Origin: an uncultured beta proteobacterium
GTDB lineage: Bacteria; Pseudomonadota; Gammaproteobacteria; Burkholderiales; Burkholderiaceae_C
Assembly: GCA_903832285.1 (NCBI GenBank)
Contig: CAILAY010000050.1
Span: 1 to 64,000, forward strand
DNA length: 64,000 nucleotides
Direction of reading: 5' to 3'
Below the pieces are notes generated by a model. It was not told the origin of the DNA. It saw nothing but the letters and a program-made list of their open reading frames with translations, and ran no database searches. The number at the start of each line of letters is the position of its first letter. The first letter of the stretch is position 1. Of this stretch, positions 7,158 through 10,015 are shown piece by piece. A program made the translations under genes and the position numbers.

Positions 7158-7781
7158 ATGATGACCGCTCCGCACAGCGCCTGGTTCCCCCGCACGCTCA
7201 CCTTTGTCGTGTGGGCGCTGGCGGCGGCGAGCGCTGTATTTTGGGGCCTGCGCTGGGACGGCAAGGCCAGCTTGGCGCTACCGGTTGCAACCGTGGCGCC
7301 GAGTGCAACCGTGGTGGATGGCGGTGCTGTGGCACGGCTTTTTGGCAATGTCGGCGCGGTCACGGAGGTGGCAGCGAATGCCCCCAATCGGCTGCAGTTG
7401 GCCGGCGTGGTGGCGCGCACTGCATCGCATACCGGCGCCGCCCTGATCGCCATCGATGGCAAGCCGGCGAAGGCATTCTCGGTGGGCAGTCGGGTCGAGG
7501 AGGGATTGTTCCTGCGCTCCGTGCAGGGCCGCCAGGCCAGTCTGGCCGCCAGTTCGGAGGGGCCGGTTTCGATGACACTGGAACTGGCCGCCCCGAGTCC
7601 GGCTTCACTCACCGGCCCAGACGTGGCGCGGGCGGGTGCATTGTCAACCCCGGTACCGGCACACCCAGCACCCCCGGGGCCAGCGCCAAGGGTTTCGGTG
7701 TCGTTGCCCACTTCCCCCGCCGCGCCGCCGCGTACCGGGGCTCGGGTCAAGTCTGCAGAAACAGGCGATACGCAGGATTGA
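7158..7781 (+). CDS. gspC: Type II secretion system protein GspC-like (PDZ-less/short)
   Basis: Divergent from gspG; N-terminal TM plus homology-region-like segment LFGNVGAVTEVAANAPNRLQLAGVVAR...AALIAIDGKPAKAFSVGSRVEEGLFLRSV. Confidence 0.85.
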   Translation: MMTAPHSAWFPRTLTFVVWALAAASAVFWGLRWDGKASLALPVATVAPSATVVDGGAVARLFGNVGAVTEVAANAPNRLQLAGVVARTASHTGAALIAIDGKPAKAFSVGSRVEEGLFLRSVQGRQASLAASSEGPVSMTLELAAPSPASLTGPDVARAGALSTPVPAHPAPPGPAPRVSVSLPTSPAAPPRTGARVKSAETGDTQD

Positions 7782-9297
7782 GGGTCTCCTCTACGTAGGG
7801 GTAGCCCAGTGTCTGCAGGAACTTGTCAAAGGCCTTGTCGTCTGCCGGCGGAACTTGCAAACCTACCAGGATACGGCCGTAGTCGGCGCCCTGATTGCGG
7901 TAGTGAAACAGGCTGATATTCCAGCCCGGGCGCATCAGATTAAGGAACTTCAACAGGGCGCCTGGCCGCTCGGGAAACACGAAGCGCAGCAGGCGCTCGC
8001 CCCGGCCGGAACTGGAGCGACCACCCACCATGTGCCGTATGTGCTCCTGCGCCAGATCGTCGTGCGTCAGATCCAGGGTCTTGAAGCCGTGCTGGCCGAA
8101 GCTGCGCGCTATTCTTGCGCTTTCGCCCTTGGCGGCCGTGGTCAGGCCCACGAACACATGGGCCTGCGCCGCGTCGCTGATGCGGTAGCTGAACTCGGTC
8201 ACATTGCGTGGCGCGCTGCCTGGCAAATTGCCGATCAGTTCGCAAAAACGCTTGAAGCTGCCGCGCTCTTCGGGCATGGTGACGGCGAACAGGCCTTCCC
8301 GCTCTTCGCCCACTTCGGCGCGCTCGGCCACAAAGCGCAGGCGGTCGAAATTCATGTTGGCGCCGCACAGGATCGCGGCATAGGTTTCGCCCCGCGTTTT
8401 GTGCAGCGCCACGTACTGCTTGATGGCCGCCACTGCCAGTGCGCCGGCAGGTTCGACGATGCTGCGCGTGTCCACGAACACGTCCTTGATGGCGGCGCAA
8501 ACGGCGTCGGTGTCGACCGTCATGAACTCGTCCACCAGACCCGAGGCAATGCGAAAAGTCTCTTCGCCCACGAGCTTGACGGCGGTGCCGTCCGAGAACA
8601 GGCCCACGTCATCCAGTGTCACGCGCTCCTTCGCCGCCACGGACTGCTGCATCGCGTTGGAGTCGTTCATCTGCACGCCGATGACCTTGATCTCCGGGCG
8701 CACGGCCTTGAAGTAGTTGGCCACGCCCGAGATCAGGCCGCCGCCACCGATGGCGACAAACACGGCGTGCAACGGTCCCTGATGCTGGCGCAGCATCTCC
8801 ATCGCCACAGTGCCCTGGCCGGCAATCACTTCCGGGTCGTCAAACGGATGGACGAAGGTCAGACCCTGCTTCTTCTCGAGCTTGAGCGCGTGGGCGTAGG
8901 CGTCTGAATAGCTGTCTCCCACCAACACGATCTCGCCGCCCAGCGCCTTGACGGCGTCCACCTTGAGTTGGGGCGTGGTGGTGGGCATGACGATCACGGC
9001 GCGCGCTCCCAACTTGTGCGCCCCCAGCGCCACGCCCTGCGCATGGTTTCCGGCGGAGGCGCAGATCACACCCTTTTTCAATTGCGCCGGCGTCAGTTGC
9101 GCCATCTTGTTGTAGGCGCCGCGCAGCTTGAAACTGTGCACCGGTTGCTGATCTTCGCGTTTGAGCAGCACCCGGTTGTGCAGGCGGCGGCTCAGGTCGG
9201 GCGCGATTTCCAATGCCGTCTCCACCGCAACGTCGTAGACGCGGGCATTGAGAATCTTCTTGAGATAGTCGGCGGGCGAGAGTGGGGTTGTCTTCAT
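7747..9297 (-). CDS. ilvA: Threonine ammonia-lyase, biosynthetic
   Basis: 516 aa; LLKREDQQPVHSFKLRGAYNKM PLP-lysine motif, GGGGLISG, two C-terminal ACT-like regulatory repeats. Confidence 0.97.
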   Translation of the reverse strand: MKTTPLSPADYLKKILNARVYDVAVETALEIAPDLSRRLHNRVLLKREDQQPVHSFKLRGAYNKMAQLTPAQLKKGVICASAGNHAQGVALGAHKLGARAVIVMPTTTPQLKVDAVKALGGEIVLVGDSYSDAYAHALKLEKKQGLTFVHPFDDPEVIAGQGTVAMEMLRQHQGPLHAVFVAIGGGGLISGVANYFKAVRPEIKVIGVQMNDSNAMQQSVAAKERVTLDDVGLFSDGTAVKLVGEETFRIASGLVDEFMTVDTDAVCAAIKDVFVDTRSIVEPAGALAVAAIKQYVALHKTRGETYAAILCGANMNFDRLRFVAERAEVGEEREGLFAVTMPEERGSFKRFCELIGNLPGSAPRNVTEFSYRISDAAQAHVFVGLTTAAKGESARIARSFGQHGFKTLDLTHDDLAQEHIRHMVGGRSSSGRGERLLRFVFPERPGALLKFLNLMRPGWNISLFHYRNQGADYGRILVGLQVPPADDKAFDKFLQTLGYPYVEETLNPAYRLFLQT

Positions 9298-9333
9298 GCG
9301 GTTCTTTTTGCTGGCTGCAATGATAAGCGCCAG

Positions 9334-9367
9334 AAAAAAAGCCCCGAACCTGTGAAGATCCGGGGCT
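9334..9367 (-). terminator. Rho-independent terminator upstream of ilvA
   Basis: AGCCCCG stem with CGGGGCT followed by TTTTTTT on the minus strand. Confidence 0.8.
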
Positions 9368-9436
9368 AATCCATCTTTTCAGAGGATGGAGGAGACAACT
9401 CTCGGTTCGTGTGTGCCGACCTGGTTGGCCAGCTCA
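9334..9436 (-). ncRNA. Candidate small RNA or ilvA leader RNA with three hairpins and an intrinsic terminator
   Basis: Minus strand reads GAGCTGGCCAACCAGGTCGG...GTTGTCTCCTCCATCCTCTGAAAAGATGGATTAGCCCCGGATCTTCACAGGTTCGGGGCTTTTTTT: hairpins CTGG-CCAA-CCAG, TCCATC..GATGGA, AGCCCCG..CGGGGCT plus U7; TATGGT -10-like box at 9442-9447. Confidence 0.55.
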
Positions 9437-9553
9437 CGTTAACCATAGTTGGAGTGTAGTCATAATTCACAGCGTGGCCAAGCCCCGGAGTCGAAAAATG
9501 CACTGCCGGAGGGCCATTTTTGCGAATTTTTACTCAATTTGAAATGGGAAGAG

Positions 9554-10015
9554 ATGTCTATGGAATGCACCGTCAGTTGGACCGGCGCAGCGGGTACGCG
9601 CAGCGCAATGGGGTTCGTGGCCGAAACCGGCAGCGGCCACGTGCTCGCCATGGATGGCGCACCCGACGCGGCCAAGCCAGAGCATGGGGGTCAAAATCTG
9701 GCGCCGCGTCCGATGGAGCTGCTGCTCGCTGGCGCGGGTGGCTGCACCGCCTATGACGTGGTGCTGATCCTCAGGCGCGGCCGGCACGACGTGCGCGGCT
9801 GCTCGGTCAAGCTGAGCGCCGAGCGCGCCGAAACCGAACCGAAGGTGTTCACCCGCATCAATCTGCACTTCACGGTTTCGGGCCGTGGCCTGGCGGCGGC
9901 GGCAGTGGAGCGCGCCATTGCACTGAGCCACGAGAAGTACTGCTCCGCTACCATCATGCTGGGAAAGACAGCCCAAATCAGCACCAGTTTTGAAGTGGTC
10001 GAGGTCAATGCTTGA
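9554..10015 (+). CDS. OsmC-family peroxiredoxin-like protein
   Basis: MSMECTVSWTGAAGTRSAMGF... RPMELLLAGAGGCTAYDVVLIL and SHEKYCSATIML match the two OsmC cysteine motifs. ATG at 9554 preferred over the ORF start at 9449. Confidence 0.88.
   Translation: MSMECTVSWTGAAGTRSAMGFVAETGSGHVLAMDGAPDAAKPEHGGQNLAPRPMELLLAGAGGCTAYDVVLILRRGRHDVRGCSVKLSAERAETEPKVFTRINLHFTVSGRGLAAAAVERAIALSHEKYCSATIMLGKTAQISTSFEVVEVNA

Follow-up and report, generated by a model that had tools for sequence, protein, structure and literature searches.

The minus-strand RNA encoded just upstream of ilvA in the window (the whole 64,000-nt stretch of DNA that was analysed) is a genuine, ordinary member of the known sRNA family RF02278. 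There is very little doubt that the gene stands alone and that its product is a trans-acting sRNA with a double hairpin, the family member found at the osmC/ilvA locus. Its family membership, structure, hairpin 1 covariation, conservation, synteny and independence from ilvA were all observed in this analysis. The locus extends a described sRNA family by one member and disposes of a false attenuator, and it is outweighed by the comparison with relatives: an operator conserved among Burkholderiaceae corresponds to the footprinted PhaR/PhbF site, and a related RNA lies in the 3'UTR of the phasin gene. Operator and phasin 3'UTR RNA together make a specific and readily testable proposal, namely that carbon storage may feed back via RNA on nutrient uptake. 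New in kind is comparative, computational evidence that would wire the RF02278 family to PHB storage.

Structure and parts of the RNA

The initial annotation had described three minus-strand hairpins in 9463-9334, a U7 terminator about 36 nt before the ilvA ATG and a CU-rich segment complementary to Shine-Dalgarno sequences. All three hairpins were recovered in the sequence and by folding, U7 ends at 9334, leaving 36 nt to the ATG at 9297, and the CU-rich segment is present as GUUGUCUCCUCCAUCCUCU, from 9399. Folding of minus-strand 9463-9334 gave -51.3 kcal/mol and that of shuffled sequences -32.6 on average (sd 3.6; z -5.2), with 0/200 shuffles as stable. A single intrinsic terminator was found in 9280-9600, where 0.3 were expected: the U7 copy before ilvA, with a 12-pair stem at 9367-9340 followed by U7 at 9340-9334, the final U of the stem being the first of the seven.

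Coordinates are collected in Table 1. The putative promoter was called solely by eye and by homology; its TACACT -10 was not listed by an automatic consensus promoter scan. The start of the long form was placed 7 nt after this -10 and is uncertain by a few nucleotides. On folding, the 5' hairpin formed in three of the four same-genus sequences, and the minimum-energy fold of L167 showed neither the 5' hairpin nor hairpin 1. In the loop of hairpin 1 the second CU stretch is shortened, CCUCUGAAAA standing in place of CCUCCUCCUUU. In the folded intact precursor the CU segment has its first bases partly paired; they would be freed only on removal of the 5' hairpin, a step that has been reported for the homologous RNAs S17 and ncS27.

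Table 1. Coordinates of the sRNA gene, its parts and neighbours, and of the related RNA at phaP (window positions unless a locus is named).
Feature	Position	Strand	Remarks
ilvA, biosynthetic threonine ammonia-lyase	7747..9297	-	TIGR01124, 797 bits; neighbour only
TATCAT, conserved -10 of ilvA's own promoter	9320..9325	-	downstream of the sRNA terminator
Intrinsic terminator, 12-pair stem + U7	9334..9367	-	fold and terminator scan
Core / predicted short form, 66 nt	9334..9399	-	RF02278 match 9397-9334, model 1-64
Predicted long sRNA form, ~113 nt	9334..9446	-	from putative promoter and terminator
Hairpin 1, UCCAUC CUCUGAAAA GAUGGA	9370..9390	-	fold and covariation
Seed GUUGUCUCCUCC	9388..9399	-	complementary to ribosome-binding sites (Site 1 of S17); putative function from PMC11722255
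5' hairpin	9411..9437	-	sequence varies among relatives; predicted to be removed by processing
-10 TACACT, putative sRNA promoter	9453..9458	-	kept in 4/4 same-genus loci (window, L166, L167, L168)
-35-like hexamer TTGGCC	9476..9481	-	17-nt spacer to -10; putative promoter
OsmC family gene, divergent	9560..10015	+	NF008009, 147 bits; start taken from relatives
phaP 3'UTR RNA, window's genome	L222 1097-1173 (G000 contig C174)	minus	GUUGUCUCCU seed, terminator; 23 more loci alike

Family membership and conservation

A covariance-model scan of the window against Rfam, one of the checks proposed in the initial annotation, gave one match, RF02278 (Betaproteobacteria toxic small RNA), at 55 bits (E 2.7e-08) against a gathering score of 50 bits; the reading as a CU-rich sRNA, and the toxic sRNA family named with it, were thereby borne out. 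The match covers the whole model above the curated threshold, with seed, hairpin 1 and terminator in common, but the score lies in the lower half of those in the family (up to 71), and the second CU stretch is the shortened one described above. It was the one RF02278 copy in the window's genome at E <= 0.001, and also the sole copy above threshold. The family was present in 127/151 genomes of the same family and in 67/100 genomes of the order; among the control genomes it was found in 0/14.

The layout of RF02278 was found in full: a single-stranded anti-Shine-Dalgarno 5' end, UGUCUCCUCC (9397-9388), is followed by a covarying first hairpin and then by the intrinsic terminator. In the alignment of 40 distinct homologue cores from family and order, GUCUCCUC (G-U-C-U-C-C-U-C) was invariant. 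The covariation analysis, likewise proposed at the outset, showed that hairpin 1 covaries across these family and order homologues: 98.7% of the alignment cells were paired, nine cells had changed on both sides, 0/500 shuffles scored as high and slid partners gave no equal. The same-genus loci L166-L168 have a core near-identical to that of the window, and differ in the 5' part.

Two order-level genomes (G205 and G157) carry eight or nine RF02278 copies each, some of them a few hundred bases apart, which suggests amplification in some families.

Characterised homologues, proposed mechanism and candidate targets

Growth inhibition has been reported in E. coli for some RF02278 members. S17 of Bordetella pertussis, which left exponential growth of E. 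coli unimpaired, is a 190-nt RNA that is cut by RNase E to a 67-nt form beginning near UGUCUCC; it is Hfq-dependent and represses mRNAs at their ribosome-binding sites, including those of a sigma-54 activator and of many transporter genes, with direct repression reported for a target (PMC11722255). Its promoter has the -35 TTGCAT and a 17-nt spacer (PMC11722255). The window RNA resembles S17 in the predicted conversion of a long into a short form and in the 17-nt promoter spacer; S17 differs in that it lies between BP3151 and coq7, is raised by BvgA-P and has a long form of 190 nt.

ncS27 of Burkholderia cenocepacia, an RF02278 RNA of 92 nt from which processing can yield a shorter form, was characterised by Northern analysis and RACE; its overexpression slows growth, and its predicted action is on the uptake of carbon and amino acids (PMC5688073). 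The double hairpin, the CU-rich single-stranded ends and the terminator of ncS27 (also of ncS03, ncS05 and ncS62) recur in the window RNA; expression and growth data for this group come from B. cenocepacia only. The long form predicted in the window has its published analogues in S17L and full-length ncS27 (PMC11722255, PMC5688073), and the window RNA has the same parts: a 5' hairpin that pairs part of the seed, the seed, hairpin 1 and the terminator.

In the proposed mechanism, transcription would start at a sigma-70-type promoter, TTGGCC-17-TACACT, and stop at the U7 terminator. The precursor would probably be trimmed to about 66 nt, so that GUUGUCUCCUCC is freed, and this end, with the help of Hfq, would pair with mRNAs for transport and catabolism at their ribosome-binding sites and block their translation. 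Processing, Hfq dependence, targets and any effect on growth are here predicted by analogy with the published homologues.

Candidate targets, with GGAGACAA before the ATG, include two DctP genes and one DctQ gene of TRAP transporters, an ABC sugar-binding protein, acetyl-CoA synthetase, another acyl-CoA-ligase-like AMP-binding enzyme, a DUF485 gene, a cytosine/allantoin-type permease and an MFS transporter. These functions fit the published targets of the family, a fit that is only suggestive because the number of GGAGACAA sites before ATG in the genome (28) was not enriched over that of the rearranged, composition-matched control GGAGAACA (29). The longer complement GGAGGAGAC occurred before ATG three times in the genome, at about control level.

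PhaR operator upstream of the RNA in relatives

In most relatives a palindrome, TGYTGCRNYGCARCA, lies upstream of the RNA, at the spot taken by the -35 in the window; in 59/69 loci the TGC of this palindrome starts 21-22 nt upstream of the first -10 base. The operator core TGCRNYGCA was found upstream of the RNA in 71/80 same-family loci (0.67 in shuffles, 1 with the motif reversed) and the published PhbF consensus of Herbaspirillum, TGNTGCNNNGCAA, in 52/80 (0.09 in shuffles, 0 reversed), counts over loci that are not phylogenetically independent. Within 500 nt before ilvA, the operator was present in 71 of the 76 ilvA loci with the RNA, versus 4 of the 33 without. Binding of PhbF/PhaR to TGNTGCNNNGCAA has been footprinted in H. 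seropedicae (PMC3206438), and the PhaR motif of R. eutropha is YTKNTGCRNYGCANMAR (PMC12849132).

Earlier work called the regulator of accumulation of these sRNAs unknown and described an unidentified common motif upstream of three homologues (PMC5688073). No paper linking PhaR to RF02278 was found in the literature searched, most subscription journals being outside the search; within it, both the PhaR operator upstream of the RNA and the phaP 3'UTR RNA appear unreported. The operator suggests that most relatives control the RF02278 RNA with PhaR, the sensor of PHB, a stored bioplastic, and, because the promoter carries this operator, PHB accumulation should derepress the RNA there. A precedent for a PhaR-controlled sRNA is MmgR of Sinorhizobium meliloti, which PhaR/AniA represses and which is linked to PHB (PMC12542648), although it is an unrelated RNA from an alphaproteobacterium; MmgR tunes phasins, whereas RF02278 RNAs are reported to act on transport and catabolism.

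At the sRNA promoter of the window's genus the -10 is kept and the operator core was found in 0/4 loci (window and L166-L168), the operator position in the window reading CTTGGCCACGCTGTG. PhaR control is therefore not claimed for the window copy; the genus has lost the operator at its ilvA-side copy. A reading in which the sRNA mainly couples carbon storage to uptake, and is still controlled by PhaR here through a degenerate site, is improbable: it could draw on the frequency of the core among the family loci, on phaR (PhaR, PF07879), which is present in 5/5 genus genomes, and on the intact operators that precede phaP in the window's genome, but it has to accommodate the complete lack of core matches in the window and its three same-genus relatives. 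Elsewhere in the window's genome (G000 contig C31:4364-4378, L143) a perfect PhaR-type palindrome, TGCTGCAACGCAGCA, was seen between two divergent genes, one of which resembles succinyl-CoA synthetase beta by eye.

A related RNA at phaP and sigma-54-type copies

Among further RF02278-like copies in genomes of the family, 11 of the 20 examined lie just downstream of a phasin gene that has PhaR-type operators upstream. In the 30 best phaP loci, which were chosen by protein alone, the operator core was found upstream of phaP in 30/30, and 24 (among L222-L251) carry a double-hairpin element 17-169 nt after the stop codon. The phasins were identified by PF09361 and TIGR01841. In the window's genome, where intact PhaR operators precede phaP, the element reads GTTGTCTCCTCGGATCC...GGGATCCC...terminator and lies 45 nt after the phaP stop (fold z -4.9). 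It has the seed and layout common to RF02278, and a different first hairpin with moderate covariation; because it scored 29 bits against RF02278, below threshold, it is not called a member. Comparison with RF02871 (ncS54) gave one weak match of 24.7 bits (threshold 43).

A sigma-54-type element, TGGCAC-N6-TGC, ends 20-21 nt upstream of the core in five of the nine copies that remain (0.01 in shuffles), which suggests nitrogen or other sigma-54 control of those copies. Promoters of this type (TGGCACGGAAGCTGC and variants) were seen at the RF02278-like copies L214, L217, L218, L220 and L221, about 1 kb into each.

We lean, with some reserve, towards a joint reading of these comparisons, in which RF02278-type RNAs across Burkholderiaceae would form the RNA arm of PHB sensing. 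PhaR would repress both the osmC-locus sRNA, where its operator overlaps the -35, and the phasin gene with its GUUGUCUCCU-seed 3'UTR RNA; when PHB forms, PhaR would come off the DNA, both RNAs would rise, and uptake and catabolism would be shut down. A third set of copies would be under sigma-54, and in the window's genome the phaP copy would keep the control that the ilvA-side copy has escaped.

Neighbouring genes and independence from ilvA

Among the 30 best RF02278 loci of the same family (L002-L031), 29 had the order osmC (divergent)-sRNA-ilvA and one, L006, showed osmC only. The OsmC family gene is the most widely conserved neighbour of the sRNA; at order level, in other families, at least 11 of 28 loci have the RNA next to osmC and lack a nearby ilvA. 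The gap between sRNA terminator and ilvA ranges from 20 to 263 nt in relatives, and where osmC and ilvA are still neighbours their starts lie 64-226 nt apart without the sRNA versus 222-478 nt with it. The set of 109 usable ilvA loci comprised 76 with and 33 without the sRNA; YTATNAT was found within 75 nt of ilvA in 49/76 and 22/33, respectively (shuffles 1.3/109), and ilvA would be transcribed from a promoter of its own that lies beyond the sRNA terminator. The same-genus genome G062 was uninformative on absence of the sRNA, its ilvA being a C-terminal fragment on a contig. The sRNA gene is therefore an independent unit, present at some loci and missing as a block from others where osmC and ilvA are still side by side.

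The alternative offered by the initial annotation, an attenuator in the ilvA leader whose terminator would sense amino-acid supply and allow read-through into ilvA, did not survive this comparison and is highly unlikely. RNA and ilvA each occur without the other, so that there is no constant association with a regulated gene, their gap is variable and the ilvA -10 is kept either way; on the other side stand the shared strand and the closeness of the terminator to the ATG. A nine-codon ORF beginning at 9463, MTTLQLWLT, with three Leu and three Thr codons, speaks for this reading, but it overlaps the -10 and lies upstream of the predicted start; the second short ORF, MVNVSWPT... (26 codons), is out of frame in L166. 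Both are for these reasons unlike leader peptides, and no conserved leader peptide was found inside the transcript. By inspection, pairing of a 5'-part CGAACC with the terminator's GGTTCG could give antitermination; the terminator dominates the fold. Still less credible is a mere intrinsic terminator insulating ilvA, with the upstream part carried by chance: the terminator is strong and close to ilvA, but it would need neither the invariant GUCUCCUC, nor a covarying hairpin 1, nor a full-length RF02278 match, and, since osmC diverges, no same-strand upstream gene needs insulating.

OsmC and ilvA genes directly adjoin each other at L035, L058, L074, L098 and further loci that lack the RNA, several of them from Rhodoferax; in the Rhodoferax loci the sRNA gene may have been lost or may be carried elsewhere.
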